Assembly: GCA_937995595.1 (NCBI GenBank)
Contig: CALKJW010000023.1
Coordinates: 1-52,908, forward strand
Direction: 5' to 3'
Length of the DNA: 52,908 nt
From: an uncultured Phycisphaerales bacterium
Lineage (GTDB): Bacteria > Planctomycetota > Phycisphaerae > Phycisphaerales > UBA1924
In this document: positions 3,130-11,077 of the stretch, one piece after another
Position numbering within the stretch: the first letter of the stretch is position 1
Layout: the number at the start of each line of letters is the position of its first letter
The notes under the pieces: model-generated
Told to the model about the DNA's origin: nothing
Database searches by the model: none
The model's input: only the letters and a program-made list of their open reading frames with translations
Program-made: the position numbers and the translations under genes

Positions 3130-3143
3130 AGGACTCAGGACTC
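3130..3143. repeat. Heptad repeat pair overlapping the lgt stop codon
   Basis: Two direct copies of AGGACTC. Read on the minus strand they are GAGTCCT GAGTCCT, identical to the pair at 40455-40468 in the opposite orientation. The lgt stop codon (3135-3137) and its last codons (Glu-Ser-stop) lie inside the repeat. Confidence 0.8.
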
Positions 3144-4193
3144 CACGCGCTCCGCTTGGCCGCTTGCCCGCAGACGCACCCACGCCGCGAGCCCGATTCC
3201 GCAGGGGATCATCGCCACGCTGAGCCACTGCCCGCGCGAGAGGCCCATCGGCCGCCCGGCGTCGCCGAACTGTTCATCGGGCAGGCGGATGGTTTCGGTG
3301 AGGATGCGCAGCACGCCGTAGCCGACGAGCCACACCGCCGCGAGCACGCCGGCGCGTGCCCACACGCTCTCGCGAGCCCTTCGCTGCCACAGCCACACGC
3401 TCCACGACACCGCGCCCAGCACGACGCCCTCGGCGACGGCCTGGTACAACTGACTGGGGTGCCTGCTCGAGAGCAGCGGCCGCAACTGGTCGGCGAACTC
3501 GGACGACCGCTCGACGAGGATCTCGAGTTGACGCGCGAAGGGCCGGCCCGGCGCGGCCCGTTCGGCCAGATGAAACAGCGCGTCGGCCTGATCGACCGTC
3601 AGCGGCGGGGGGTTGCGGAGCAGCAGTTCCTGCGGGTACTGCACGCTCCACCACGGGCCGGGCGTGCCCGGCGGCGAGACGATCCGCCCGAGCAGTTCGC
3701 CGTTGATGAAGTTGGCGCAGCGCCCGAAGAACAGGCCGAAGGGCGCGGCGAGCGTGAGCGCGTCCATGACGTGCAGCACCGAGCAGCGGCCCTCGACCTG
3801 TCCCTGCTGGTCGCGCCAGCCGCGCGAGACGCGCCACGCCGCGAGCACCAGCCCGGCCATCGCGCCGTGGCTGGCCATGCCGCCGTGGTTGATGGCCACG
3901 CCGCCCCACCACGGGAAGGTGTCGAAGAACGTCCACGCCAGCGACGGCTGGTAGAAGATCACGTAGCCCAGCCGCCCGCCGACGAGCGTGAGACCGATGA
4001 ACCACATCATCGCGTCGGCCACGCGGTGCGCGGGGATGGCCAGCCAGCCGCGGCGAGCCAGCGGCCGCAGCACGAGGTACGCGCACGCGAAGCCGGCCAG
4101 GTACGACACGCCGTACCAGCGGATCGCCAGCCAGTCCGCGATGCGGACGATCACGGGGTCGATCGTGTGCAGCCACGCGGCCAGGGTCGCCAT
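3135..4193 (-). CDS. lgt: Prolipoprotein diacylglyceryl transferase
   Basis: A 352-residue inner-membrane enzyme that moves the diacylglyceryl group of phosphatidylglycerol onto the lipobox cysteine of prelipoproteins. Family motifs appear in order: IRWYGVSYLAGF near the N-terminus, VGGRLGYVIFY, NHGGMASHGAMAG (the conserved H-G-G-x-x-S-H-G block), and FGLFFGRCANFINGELLGR, the signature around the phosphatidylglycerol-binding arginine. The C-terminal half has HPSQLYQA and three hydrophobic segments. It is somewhat longer than the usual 260-300 residues because of an extra stretch after the signature. Start chosen at the ATG at 4193. It is last in a minus-strand run, 40 bases after the flavoprotein gene. 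Its stop lies in a heptad repeat. Confidence 0.95.
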   Translation of the reverse strand: MATLAAWLHTIDPVIVRIADWLAIRWYGVSYLAGFACAYLVLRPLARRGWLAIPAHRVADAMMWFIGLTLVGGRLGYVIFYQPSLAWTFFDTFPWWGGVAINHGGMASHGAMAGLVLAAWRVSRGWRDQQGQVEGRCSVLHVMDALTLAAPFGLFFGRCANFINGELLGRIVSPPGTPGPWWSVQYPQELLLRNPPPLTVDQADALFHLAERAAPGRPFARQLEILVERSSEFADQLRPLLSSRHPSQLYQAVAEGVVLGAVSWSVWLWQRRARESVWARAGVLAAVWLVGYGVLRILTETIRLPDEQFGDAGRPMGLSRGQWLSVAMIPCGIGLAAWVRLRASGQAERVES

Positions 4194-4233: not shown

Positions 4234-5388
4234 TCAGGCGGTCGCCGCGCCGGCGAAGAAGCGCCGGTGCGAGGCGAGGATGCGCCGGCACGCGGCCGGG
4301 TCGGGCGTCGGGTTCTCGACGCCGCGTTCGACTGTGCCGCCGAGCACGACCGCGTCGCGTCTGGGGAACATGTACCCGTCGCCGTGGCTGAGCAGGTACG
4401 GCAGGTTCTGCGGTCGCAGCAGGACGACCTGCCCGCGCACGCCCGTCAGCCGCGGGTCGGCCACGATCGCGCGGGCACCAAGGCCCAGGCAGTTCACCAC
4501 CACGCGTTCGCGCAGGCCGCGCAGATCGTCGAACGATTCGAAGGTGCGCGGCACGATCTCGCCGCCGAGCGTCCGCACCTCATGCACCAGCCGCGGCAGA
4601 AAGACCGGCGGCTCGACGAGCATCGTGCGCACGACCCCGCCGGGGACCTGCAGGCCGGCGATGGGCAGCCGCGCGAGCGGCTCCGGCGTGCCGCCCAGGT
4701 CCGACGGGATGTGCCGCAGGCCGCCGCCGCCGTCGCCGCAGACGAAGTTGGGCCTGCGGGCCACGCCCCAGTCGCCATGATCGGCCAGCGTCGCGAACCG
4801 CGCGTGCGAGCCGCGCAGCACGCGGTCGAAGAATCCCGGATCGCCGGGCGGGCTGCCGCGCGAAACCAGCGACGGGGCCCACTGTGCGCCGGCGAGCCAG
4901 GACGTGGTCCCGTCGAGCGTGTCGCGCGCGTAGACGCGCACGCGCCGGCCCGCGCCGAGCAGTTCGCACGCCGCGGTCAGGCCGACGACGCCTGCGCCGA
5001 GCACGGCGACAGGCTCCTCCGCCGGGGCGTGACCGCGCACCAGCCGGAGCGCCTCGGCCGCGCACCCCCACGAGAGCGTGACCCCCGCGCCGCCGTGCCC
5101 ATAGTTATGTATAACTAATAAGTTGTCTCGACGCTCGCACTCGACGCGGACGCGCCCGCTGCGGTACGGGCGTATGCCCGCGCGCATCGCCGCCACCATC
5201 GCGTCCGAAAGGTCCGGCGCGGGAAACAGCCGCGGGCCGGTCGCGGGCGCTGCGCCGGCCTGTGCCGCTCCCGCTTGGCCGCCGCGCGCGGCGCACCCGC
5301 CCACGCCCGCGAGCGCGCCCGCGGCCAGCGCCGCCGCGCCGCGAAGGAACGCCCGCCGGTCCGGCCGCGCCTCGCCTGTTGTGGCCAT
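4234..5388 (-). CDS. Secreted D-amino-acid-oxidase-like flavoprotein with permuted motif order
   Basis: A 384-residue FAD-dependent oxidoreductase. The N-terminus has a twin-arginine signal (RRAFLRGAAA, residues 11-20) ending in VGGC, which could also act as a lipobox. Residues 71-118 carry GIRPYR (arginine 73) and HNYGHGG (94-100) followed by WGCAAEAL. In D-amino-acid oxidases these blocks form the C-terminal end of the chain. Only after them comes the nucleotide-binding motif GAGVVG (131-136), which normally starts the chain, then GTTSWLAGAQWAP, VVNCLGLGA (298-306), VRGQVVLL, YMFPRR with tyrosine 339, VVLGGT, and the chain stops soon after. So all conserved elements are present but circularly permuted. 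Codons around 5101-5123 are unusually AT-rich, including TTA TTA, unlike the rest of the gene. Likely an exported D-amino-acid or related amine oxidase; the substrate is unknown. Confidence 0.85.
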   Translation of the reverse strand: MATTGEARPDRRAFLRGAAALAAGALAGVGGCAARGGQAGAAQAGAAPATGPRLFPAPDLSDAMVAAMRAGIRPYRSGRVRVECERRDNLLVIHNYGHGGAGVTLSWGCAAEALRLVRGHAPAEEPVAVLGAGVVGLTAACELLGAGRRVRVYARDTLDGTTSWLAGAQWAPSLVSRGSPPGDPGFFDRVLRGSHARFATLADHGDWGVARRPNFVCGDGGGGLRHIPSDLGGTPEPLARLPIAGLQVPGGVVRTMLVEPPVFLPRLVHEVRTLGGEIVPRTFESFDDLRGLRERVVVNCLGLGARAIVADPRLTGVRGQVVLLRPQNLPYLLSHGDGYMFPRRDAVVLGGTVERGVENPTPDPAACRRILASHRRFFAGAATA

Positions 5389-5394
5389 GCGTGC

Positions 5395-6237
5395 TCACTC
5401 CGCGTCGATGCCGTAGAACCGTCGGGTGTTGTCGTTGATCTGCGCGTGAAGCTCGTCGAACGGCACGGCGCGGAGGTCCGCCAGCGCCCGGGCCGTCACC
5501 GCCGCCCACCCCGGCATGCACGGCCGCCTGCCGCGGTGAGGAACCGGCGCGAGAAACGGCGCATCGGTCTCGACCATGAGCCGGTCGGCGGGAACGAGCC
5601 GGGCGGCGTCGCGCACCTCCGGCGCGTTGGGGTAGGTCAACACGCCGGTGAACGACACCCACGCGCCGAAGTCCAGCACCTTGCGGATATCCGCCGGCCC
5701 GCCCGTGAAGCAGTGAAACACGAACCGCGTGGGGTCGAGCCCCGAAGCGCCCAGCACCGGGATCAGGTCGTCGAACGCCTCGCGGCAGTGGATCACCACC
5801 GGCAGGCCGCCGCGCTTGCCGATCCCGCCGGGCCCGTCGTGGTTGCACGAGGCGATGAAGGCCAGTTGCTCGTCGAGCACGGCGCGCTGCACGTTTCGCG
5901 CCGGACGCGGGTAGTGGTTGTCGAGCCCCAGTTCGCCCCACGCCACGCACCTGGGGTCGCTCGCCACGCGGCGCAGGTTCTCCCACTCGTGCCCGGCTCG
6001 CCCCGCGTTGCGGCGTTCGGCTGGATCGTCGTCGGCGTCGGCGTACAGCGGGTGCACGCCCGCGGAGCACCATACGCGGTCGTGCGCACGGGCGACGGCC
6101 AGCGCGTCGAGGCAGTCGTGCGTCGTCGTCGAGATCGTGACCGCCCCCGTCACGCCCTCGGCGCGGGCGTGGGCCATCACCTCCGGCACGCGCCCGGCGA
6201 ACTCGGGGAACGTGAGGTGGCAGTGCGTGTCGATCAC
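5395..6237 (-). CDS. tatD: TatD-family metal-dependent hydrolase
   Basis: A 280-residue TIM-barrel hydrolase of the TatD family, whose members act as metal-dependent DNA 3'-exonucleases or deoxyribonucleases. The metal ligands are visible: DTHCHL at the N-terminus (H5, H7), the glutamate in WGELGLDNH, the histidine in VIHCREA, the histidine in FHCFTGG, and the aspartate in ETDAPFLAP. Length is slightly above the usual 255-265 because of a loop after HPLYADADDD. The start codon is GTG at 6235-6237, which overlaps the stop of the upstream nuclease gene by 4 bases (GTGA), so translation is probably coupled. The flavoprotein gene begins 6 bases after its stop. Confidence 0.93.
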   Translation of the reverse strand: MIDTHCHLTFPEFAGRVPEVMAHARAEGVTGAVTISTTTHDCLDALAVARAHDRVWCSAGVHPLYADADDDPAERRNAGRAGHEWENLRRVASDPRCVAWGELGLDNHYPRPARNVQRAVLDEQLAFIASCNHDGPGGIGKRGGLPVVIHCREAFDDLIPVLGASGLDPTRFVFHCFTGGPADIRKVLDFGAWVSFTGVLTYPNAPEVRDAARLVPADRLMVETDAPFLAPVPHRGRRPCMPGWAAVTARALADLRAVPFDELHAQINDNTRRFYGIDAE

Positions 6238-8972: not shown

Positions 8973-9974
8973 TCAGGCGCCGGGCTGGGACGGGTCGACG
9001 CCCGCGATCGCGCCGCGCATCGTGGTGTCCGCCTGCAGGTTCCTCATCCGGTAGTAGTCCATGATGCCCAGGTTGCCCTTGCGGAACGACTCGCTGATGG
9101 CCTTGGGGATCTCCGCCTCGGCCAGCACGACCATGGCGCGGTTCTTCTGCTGCTCGGCCTTGAACTCCTGCTCGGCGGCGACGGCCAGCGCGCGGCGCTT
9201 CTCGGCCTCGGCCTGCGCCATCTCCTTGTTGGTGCGGGCCTGGTCCAGGTCGAGTTTGGCGCCGATGTTCTCGCCCACGTCGATGTCGGCGATGTCGATC
9301 GAGAGAATCTCGAACGCCGTGCCCGCGTCGAGGCCCGAGGCCATCACCTTCTTGGAGATCTCGTCGGGGTTCTCCAGCACGTGCTTGTGATCGACGGCCG
9401 AGCCGATGGTCGAGACGATGCCCTGCCCGACGCGGGCGACGATGGTCTCCTCCGTCGCGCCGCCGACGAGCCGGGCGATGTTGGTGCGCACCGTCACGCG
9501 CGCCTTGGCCTTGAGCTGGATCCCGTTCTTGGCCACCGCGTCGATGGTCGGGCGCGGGCTGGTGGGGCCGGGGCAGTCGATGACCTTGGGGTTTACCGAG
9601 GTCTGCACGGCTTCGAGGATGTCGCGCCCGGCCAGGTCGATGGCGGTCGCGGTGTTCCACTCGAGGTTGATGCGAGCGCCGCGCGCGGCGATCAACGCCG
9701 AGATCACGTGCGGCACGCGCCCGCCCGCGAGGTAGTGCGATTCGAGTTGGTTCGTCGGGATGTCCAGCCCCGCCTTCTTGGCGCGGATGCGGCTGTACAC
9801 GATCGTCCGAAGGTCCACCTTGCGCAGACGCATGCCGATCAGTTCCAGCAGGCTCACCCGCGCGTTGCTCAGCAGCGCCTGGATGTACAGGTTGAAGAAC
9901 TGCCCCACCACGAACACGAAGATCAGCAGGAAGAGTCCCGCGACCAGCCCCAGTGCGATCCAGACATAGCCCAT
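8973..9974 (-). CDS. floA: Flotillin-like membrane-microdomain protein
   Basis: A 333-residue SPFH protein that scaffolds functional membrane microdomains. One N-terminal hydrophobic segment (about residues 4-25) is followed by [27 protein letters not shown]-type sequence, the FloA-specific block with conserved basic residues; the SPFH core with [13 protein letters not shown] and KARVTVRTN; and an Ala/Glu-rich coiled coil with [16 protein letters not shown]. The C-terminal end [16 protein letters not shown] is typical of the YqfA/FloA type. Start at ATG 9974, with GGAGAA just upstream. It converges with the glycosyltransferase gene (25 bases apart) and follows the anchored-protein gene, from which it is separated by a strong hairpin at 10068-10093. 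Confidence 0.95.
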
Positions 9975-10067
9975 CGTGCGTTCTCCGCTCACGACCCGCC
10001 CGACCCCGCCCGCGACGATCGGCGGAGTATAGCGGGCGCGGCGGCGCACCTGCCGCGCGCAAAGCAG

Positions 10068-10093
10068 ACAGCCGGGCCAGAGGGCCCGGCTGT
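10068..10093 (-). terminator. Terminator-like hairpin after the anchored thioester protein gene
   Basis: A perfect 11-base-pair stem (ACAGCCGGGCC with GGCCCGGCTGT) and a 4-base loop lie 45 bases after the stop codon of the gene at 10139-10807. On the minus strand the stem is followed by CTGCTTTG, a weak T-run. It probably ends that transcript before floA. Confidence 0.75.
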
Positions 10094-10138
10094 CGCCGAG
10101 GTGGACGCGTGTGCGGTCGAGCGGGGAACGAACGTCAC

Positions 10139-10807
10139 TCAGCGCCGGCGGCGTGCGGCAAGGCCGATCAGGCCGATGCCCGCCAGCGCCGCCGTCGCCG
10201 GCGCGGGGATGACGGTGATCTGGTCCTGCGCCGTCGCCGAGTGCAGCACGGCCAGTTCCGGCAGCCAGTTGTCGGTGAAGTATGTCGGCGAGGCGATCGC
10301 GTCGAGCCACGCCGTCGCCGTGGTCACCGGCGCGCCGGTGGAGTTCACCTTGAAGGAACCCGACGCGAGGTTGAAGTCGTCGTCGTGGATGATCTCCCAG
10401 ACCGCGATCTGGAACGCCGCGGAGGTGTTCGCGCTGTTCACCAGCGGGAAGCGGTCGGCAAAGAGGCGGCGGAGCATCACCTCCTGCGTCGGCGTGAAGC
10501 CGTGCTCCAGCGGCGTGCGCACCGTGAAGGTGTAGTTGGTGTTCGCGTGCACGTGCTGGGCCAGATCGACGCAGTAGGTGTTGAACGTGCCGGGGATGGT
10601 CGCGTCGATGCCGGGGCCGGGCGAGTCCTGACGGGTCCAGTTGAACAGGACCGTGTTCACGTCGCCGTTGAGCGACGGAGAGTTGATGTTCATCGTCTTG
10701 CCGTACGAGGACGTGAACTTCGCCGTGATCACGTCGGCGCTGGCGGCCGAGGCGGCAAACCCGGCGAACACGGCGGCGAGGATGGCGGTGCGGTTGCTGG
10801 TCTTCAT
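10139..10807 (-). CDS. Secreted PEP-CTERM-like anchored protein with a thioester-type domain
   Basis: A 222-residue exported protein. It has an N-terminal signal peptide ([17 protein letters not shown]..., cleavage likely after ASA near residue 23) and a C-terminal sorting tail, [19 protein letters not shown] then five arginines including the end: a PEP-CTERM-like proline motif, hydrophobic helix and basic cluster. Between them, TYCVDL (C79) and [11 protein letters not shown] (Q133) match the two halves of the thioester/TQXA domain of surface adhesins, in which Cys and Gln side chains form a reactive internal thioester. The start at ATG 10807 has AAAGGGA nine bases upstream. No exosortase gene is in the window. 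The function is likely surface attachment; the thioester assignment is by motif only. Confidence 0.8.
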
Positions 10808-11077
10808 GGTGGTCCCTTTCGTGCCGCCGGTCGGCCGACGCGGTTCTTCAGGCCGCGCCGGGAGAGATTCGGGGCATTGCCAGCCCACGCGGCGGGCGTG
10901 CCCGATCTCTCGCGGCCCGTGAAAGGTCGAATTCGCGCCGGCGCGCGGCCACCACCCCGACTCGCGATCGGCGTGCGATGGTCGGGCTGTACGGGCCTGT
11001 GAAGGCCGGCAACCTGTGATGCCAAAGGGGCGAAGGTGCGCCGGGCCAGCGTCGGGGGTGGGCCGCGGGGCGCGCGA

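Follow-up and report, generated by a model that had tools for sequence, protein, structure and literature searches.

Can the chain of a D-amino-acid oxidase (DAAO) be rotated in nature, so that what normally ends the enzyme comes ahead of what normally begins it? The question is raised by a single gene on a planctomycetal contig, of which a stretch of 52,908 nt was analysed (called hereafter the window). A sequence-only reading of this DNA had proposed that the gene encodes a real, exported circular permutant of the DAAO family. The open reading frame at 4234–5388 on the minus strand is exact: it starts with ATG and its 384 codons contain no internal stop. The parts of the gene and its immediate neighbours are the following.

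4234..5388, minus strand: gene for the circularly permuted D-amino-acid oxidase family protein, 384 aa
5290..5388, minus strand: twin-arginine-type leader, aa 1–33, recognised by eye from RRAFLR, a hydrophobic run and VGGC (lipobox-like site, Cys32)
5038..5217, minus strand: moved block, aa 58–117, equivalent to human DAAO 268–330 (the C-terminal part), with Arg73 (human Arg283) and HNYGHGG
5017..5037, minus strand: new joint, aa 118–124, leading from the old C-terminal helix to the first FAD-binding strand
4252..5016, minus strand: core, aa 125–379, equivalent to human DAAO 1–268, from the GAGVVG FAD-binding strand to the Tyr block
5395..6237, minus strand: upstream neighbour, TatD-type DNase, 6 bases ahead of the oxidase start
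3135..4193, minus strand: downstream neighbour, lgt (prolipoprotein diacylglyceryl transferase), 40 bases past the oxidase stop

The oxidase and TatD-type genes are perhaps co-transcribed. A conserved operon was rejected, as the stretches around six other permuted loci of the same phylum showed no TatD and no lgt, and none of the genes next to the window gene hints at amino-acid metabolism. Elsewhere in the window, the contig end (2–209) carries two 7-base tandem arrays, GGCGGAA (17.6 copies) and TCCCACT (9.1 copies); a gene at 8973–10310 (minus strand) resembles that of flotillin FloA, and the protein encoded at 10139–10888 (minus strand) has a PEP-CTERM sorting motif slightly above its cut-off and a weak thioester-domain match that stays below its own.

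All six conserved blocks were found at the residues first reported for them, with the C-terminal ones ahead of GAGVVG: GIRPYR (71–76), HNYGHGG (94–100) and WGCAAEAL (107–114) come before GAGVVG (131–136), YMFPRR (339–344) and VVLGGT (347–352). An Ala/Gly-rich stretch lies between the VGGC leader and the moved block. The Pfam DAO profile (PF01266) matched the whole protein with an E-value of 4.1e-29, the best stretch being aa 127–380 against profile positions 2–299, and the first 118 aa alone matched positions 295–349 (E 5e-6, 26.7 bits, cut-off 27.9). Homology thus extends across the whole DAO profile, as in the DAAO/D-aspartate oxidase (DASPO) family. Sequence searches of solved chains gave the same division: human DAAO 268–330 matched aa 58–117, and in D-aspartate oxidase 6rkf residues 14–265 matched aa 126–372 and residues 272–335 matched aa 58–118. 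Since the block corresponds to human DAAO 268–330 and the core to 1–268, the cut site lies near human residue 268.

The window protein was then rotated in silico and rescored against PF01266 and the solved chains. After rotation, PF01266 gave a single stretch covering positions 2–349 of 353 at 113.2 bits, as compared with two stretches and 102.6 bits before; likewise 6rkf gave one collinear match (15–335, 101.9 bits) in place of two stretches (96.3 bits). The canonical order, with the GxGxxG strand first and the HNYGHGG block last, is not that of the window protein, in which the block (58–117) stands before the core (125–379), and the protein therefore belongs to a permuted branch of the DAAO/DASPO family rather than among its canonical members. 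Among the solved chains matched by a permuted-family profile, none had block and core collinear in the permuted order; of 17 DAAO/DASPO sequences, 16 matched this profile as two separate pieces, and yeast 1c0i matched it over the core alone. Judged from the sequences, the rearrangement of the chain is as good as shown.

The protein does not qualify as a glycine oxidase ThiO by NCBIfam TIGR02352, the score being 49.8 bits for a cut-off of 250.8. ThiO and the other PF01266 oxidases share the Pfam family, but they have the normal order and a lower structural Z (16.3–17.2).

The full-length predicted model had a pLDDT of 83.3 and a pTM of 0.81. Local pLDDT was below 50 for aa 1–9 and 26–50, and 79–97 by tens of residues for aa 51–120, so that the block is confidently modelled within the full chain, with a 12-residue strand at 65–76; the joint is flanked by a helix (102–120) and a strand (127–130). 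The 17 best solved chains against this model were all DAAO or DASPO (Z 19.6–21.6), and the core fold is common to human DAAO 2du8, human DASPO 6rkf and yeast DAAO 1c0i/1c0k. Core residues 122–380 aligned with 6rkf_A at Z 21.6 (rmsd 2.7, 248 aligned), and in the VIA alignment aa 125–379 aligned to human DAAO 1–268 (6kbp_A, Z 21.1, rmsd 2.6, 244 aligned). The FAD and substrate domains of the window protein are thus predicted to have the DAAO fold.

With the eukaryotic DAAO and DASPO the window protein has in common the FAD motif, the carboxylate Arg, the HNYGHGG-type loop and the Tyr block. It differs from them in its chain, rotated by about 268 residues, in its N-terminal leader, and in its core sequence, which is 21–27% identical to theirs.

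Homologues with the same motif order had been named as a check on the proposal, and they proved to be numerous. A contig scan was run with nine permuted sequences from the window's phylum as queries, and the best 80 of 581 confirmed candidates were kept. All of these 80 best had the permuted order; the scan ranks by likeness to a permuted query, so that normal-order loci would be ranked down. According to the titles of their own records, these best 80 of 581 come from nine phyla: Planctomycetota, Pseudomonadota, Acidobacteriota, Actinomycetota, Gemmatimonadota, Verrucomicrobiota, Cyanobacteriota, Myxococcota and Zixiibacteriota. Order was then classified in 173 loci (L014–L186) by applying an HMM built from 28 permuted members to frames of at least 200 codons. 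A single collinear piece, the mark of the permuted order, was found at 131 loci, core followed by block at 42, and none was left unclassified. The 131 include all 80 scan loci; 15 are duplicates, which leaves 116 distinct proteins. Because 131 related loci share the collinear match, the permuted order characterises a family rather than this one contig. The window protein is one member of a widespread family, which goes beyond what had been proposed from the single sequence. The 42 others (L022–L028, L140–L168, L178–L183) are the nearest normal-order relatives found; they carry the same motifs, with the core first and the block last.

Whole-genome searches gave a full-length permuted match in 83 of 1933 genomes from eight phyla, a rate raised by the window's own genome and the seed genomes, which hold the gene by choice. 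Such a match was present in genomes of Gemmatimonadota (38 of 180, plus two core-only and two partial matches), Acidobacteriota (10 of 149, with 6 in normal order), Pseudomonadota (20 of 398) and Planctomycetota (9 of 392, own genome counted, with 7 more in normal order). It was found in 3 of 174 genomes of Verrucomicrobiota (seed counted; one partial match besides) and in the seed genome alone for Myxococcota (1 of 169; 3 core-only matches), Cyanobacteriota (1 of 175; 3 core-only matches) and Actinomycetota (1 of 296; 29 loci in normal order, 2 genomes not classified). For Planctomycetota the query was a single protein (E 1e-15), for the other phyla a profile (1e-20); in Cyanobacteriota, Gemmatimonadota, Verrucomicrobiota and Myxococcota the order was judged from match coverage alone. 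As the top few first-look candidates were scored per genome, these counts are no proof of absence, and the Pseudomonadota search is likewise no proof that normal-order forms are absent there. One Acidobacteriota genome holds four permuted copies (L172, L184, L185 and L186), of which two share a contig at a distance of about 13 kb. The three cyanobacterial core-only matches (L194–L196) are frames of some 820–830 aa. Among plasmid records seven matched, three of them covered to at least 80% in one place, and the plasmid genes, where annotated, are named FAD-dependent oxidoreductase.

Two trees were computed: one of 99 rotated rows (98 of 150 non-redundant loci and the window protein), and one restricted to the core, with 55 of these rows and 267 columns, from which the moved block was left out. 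In the 99-row tree the permuted rows made up one side of a branch with an SH-aLRT of 93. In the core tree they were split from 22 sampled normal-order relatives with a support of 100/97, and this split was present in 100% of 200 bootstrap trees. Both trees are unrooted, and in both the normal-order loci L140 and L143, from the Actinomycetota search, separate the permuted rows from the rest of the normal ones. As the trees have no outgroup, a root among the normal-order rows can only be assumed; that the normal order is ancestral, we infer from its presence in eukaryotic DAAO and the other solved relatives. On these sequence data a single origin suffices for the permuted branch, although it is not proven, and the simplest history would be one permutation event followed by spread into many phyla. 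Permutation could arise by duplication, so that a block-core-block intermediate might be expected; there was none among the 173 classified loci, in a survey with Bacteroidota and eukaryotes outside its range.

Could the rotated order be a mere artefact, two neighbouring fragments of a DAAO gene having been wrongly joined in assembly or annotation? The window is one contig of a 55-contig draft genome, and a single genome could be misassembled. Against this, the same order recurs in all of the best 80 of 581 scan loci, two of which come from records titled complete genome (L074 and L093), and the permuted proteins are diverged and yet group together in the tree. Their joint spacing is nearly fixed: from the His of HNYGHGG to the first Gly of GxGxxG there are 35 residues in 91 of the 131 permuted loci (range 24–49; 37 in the window protein). 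Two joined genes had been named at the outset as what would overturn the permutant; permuted relatives in independent genomes exclude them. We give an assembly error practically no credence and rejected it. An alternative that takes the gene at face value is that the block is an independent N-terminal domain resembling the DAAO C-terminus, set before a core that lacks its C-terminal strand. Aligners that keep the chain order cover only aa 122–380 of the model and leave the block, before aa 120 or so, unaligned, so that its placement on the core is something we infer, and a model of the block alone gave no structural match at Z of 2 or more among 94 chains aligned. This last negative says little, because the block-alone model, made from 30 sequences, is itself poor (pLDDT 69.9, pTM 0.42, the long 65–76 strand missing). 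A block that is poorly folded alone and confident within the full chain speaks against independence; the two pTM values fit, if indirectly, a block that would need its core. Moreover, the profile of the block picked out 17 solved sequences (E ≤0.01), all of them D-amino-acid or D-aspartate oxidases matched in their C-terminal part (267–330 in human DAAO), and a second block after the core was detected in none of the 131 permuted loci. An independent domain is therefore very improbable, and the proposal of a real circular permutant stands, on sequence, on the rotation test and on many independent genomes.

The export that had been claimed for the protein is made probable by a twin-arginine-type (Tat-type) leader here and in most relatives found. 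The window leader scored 15.1 bits (E 0.022) against Pfam TAT_signal, whose cut-off is 22.7, and VGGC matches a lipobox only fairly well. Leaders were counted by a home-made rule that asks for RR, KR or RK and a hydrophobic 12-residue run in the upstream open frame, a start codon being optional. By this rule, 99 of 116 distinct permuted proteins carry one, against one of 42 normal-order proteins (41 without), and the leader of that one lies within an unlikely upstream stretch. A control with shuffled leaders gave a mean of 8.3 and a maximum of 20 of 116. An earlier count had been 104 of 123 permuted loci, with duplicates included and 8 loci unparsed. Among the 17 proteins missed by the rule, at least five (L018, L041, L051, L084 and L172) carry an RR leader by eye. 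Because the sequences are related, these counts stand for few events and not for 116: with states set by hand (L039 labelled leaderless against the automatic rule, L139 omitted), three changes of leader state suffice for the core tree, and four for the tree of 99 rows, which would fit one gain and two or three losses. A lipobox-like Cys was present in 66 of the 99 leader-bearing permuted proteins, by a lax rule with no control.

Residues of the active site were inspected across the family. Alignment to solved DAAO chains pairs Arg73 with human Arg283 and Tyr339 with human Tyr228, so that the window protein has both the Arg and the Tyr expected of a DAAO. We take these two residues of the human enzyme to have substrate-binding catalytic roles, the Arg holding the substrate carboxylate; solved entries titled Y228L/R283G exist among DAAO structures. 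In the 131 permuted loci (15 duplicates included), R73, H94, G131, G133 and R343 are present in all 131, R76 and G136 in 130, Y96 in 129 and Y339 in 108; the 42 normal-order loci have R73 in 42 and Y339 in 39. The 23 permuted loci in which the Tyr is replaced are L120 and L131–L139, a divergent group with Ser, Gly, Asn, Phe or Gln at this position, and 13 more, among which ten carry His. Not all permuted members need therefore share the DAAO chemistry. The divergent permuted group (L120, L131–L139 and L177), which may have a different substrate, comes from the Pseudomonadota and Acidobacteriota searches; eight of its rows make one long-branched group in the 99-row tree, and L133–L135 were outside the tree sample.

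The genomic context of the relatives was also inspected. No neighbour family was common to many phyla among the best 80 of 581 loci. Within these 80, genes that we presume to be hslV and hslU adjoin 6 and 5 alphaproteobacterial loci, respectively (one hslV-like protein was tested and matched Pfam Proteasome subunit), and a cytochrome c-like gene lies 0.4–2.7 kb away in 6 loci, all gammaproteobacterial, one of the six calls having been tested with Pfam. A 13-locus neighbour cluster among the 80 looks like antisense ORFs of the oxidase itself. The permuted genes of Bradyrhizobium elkanii pK03D-1 and of Rhizobium ruizarguesonis pRlX1 are leaderless, and each is flanked by a gene for a BBE-type FAD oxidoreductase on one side and one for a TPP enzyme on the other; this rhizobial trio (L187, L188) is on conjugative plasmids, near copper-protein genes and transposases. 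A TPP gene also adjoins the leaderless permuted gene of Nonomuraea and that of a Myxococcaceae MAG (L102), which has an RR leader; in Actinomadura the evidence for one is a 30-aa match only. The best NCBIfam match of the Rhizobium TPP protein was indolepyruvate/phenylpyruvate decarboxylase, at 222 bits for a cut-off of 554.5. In a quick tree, the four TPP-adjoined members and L035, L058 and L125 formed one group of seven (SH-aLRT 89). A BBE-type gene adjoins L058, and no decarboxylase-like neighbour was found around L034, L040, L058 or L125, L034 having little downstream sequence. An adjoining TPP gene is what one would expect if an alpha-keto acid is the product of the oxidase. The arrangement, which only some members of one branch have, suggests an oxidase that supplies such an acid, and the three genes possibly form a small pathway.

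The explanation that competes most seriously with a permuted amino-acid oxidase grants the permutation and denies the chemistry: the branch, or much of it, would consist of exported flavoproteins with another job, be it a different substrate, an electron-transfer partner, or a dehydrogenase, which may still act on amino acids. We know of no characterised DAAO that is a Tat-exported enzyme, and this favours a changed role, as do the cytochrome c-like gene near 6 of the best 80 of 581 loci, in Gammaproteobacteria only, and the replacement of the Tyr in 23 of 131. The substrate-carboxylate Arg has nevertheless been kept in every permuted locus, with the HNYGHGG loop nearly as conserved, and several members of one branch have a decarboxylase-like gene next to them. 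We consider a loss of amino-acid oxidation in the branch, or in much of it, unlikely, though by no means far-fetched.

The reading that we prefer, with good confidence, is that these proteins form a naturally permuted branch of the DAAO/D-aspartate oxidase family, which, on the sequence evidence, would be old, widespread, mostly exported and still oxidising amino acids. The old ends of DAAO would be joined by a short linker at about aa 118–124, and the new ends would open near human residue 268, between the helix that follows the Tyr block and the Arg-bearing strand. The moved block would fold back on the core like the normal C-terminal strand, hairpin and helix. The enzyme would bind FAD, as its conserved motifs suggest, and an amino acid, most likely a D-amino acid, would be oxidised to the imino acid and then to the alpha-keto acid, with oxygen or some other acceptor taking up the electrons. 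Here and in most of the relatives found, the folded flavoprotein would probably leave the cytoplasm by the Tat route, its N-terminus perhaps lipid-anchored, and would act on the outer surface of the cytoplasmic membrane or within the periplasm.

Circular permutation of an FAD protein has a precedent from the laboratory. LucY is reported to have been permuted artificially, which indicates that an FAD-binding protein can tolerate such a change (PMC4408115). LucY is a different, fluorescent FAD protein whose permutation was engineered, whereas that of the window protein is natural. In the portions consulted, PMC4408115, PMC4699246, PMC7503967, PMC13359353 and PMC12502724 do not describe a permuted DAAO, and no description was found in the searchable portions of the open-licence full-text literature, outside of which lie preprints and most subscription papers. 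Within the open-licence literature so searched, the permuted DAAO branch is undescribed, and the material covered yielded no activity, substrate or structure for any of its members.

Biotechnology and brain research both make use of DAAO, a textbook flavoenzyme. A widespread natural permutant means that its fold can be cut near residue 268, and offers ready-made alternative termini for engineering. It also marks a class of probably exported amino-acid oxidases which, where annotation was seen, are annotated merely as FAD-dependent oxidoreductases. Finally, it is a case in which one can test whether export evolved hand in hand with permutation. A scenario that we hold tentatively, with rather more doubt than belief, is that a single ancient permutation moved the N-terminus of DAAO from the buried FAD strand to a surface loop and so allowed a Tat leader and a lipid anchor to be added. 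Widespread, membrane-tethered, extracytoplasmic D-amino-acid oxidases making alpha-keto acids, ammonia and H2O2 would have followed; two branches would later have lost the leader, one of them being recruited with a decarboxylase into a cytoplasmic pathway.
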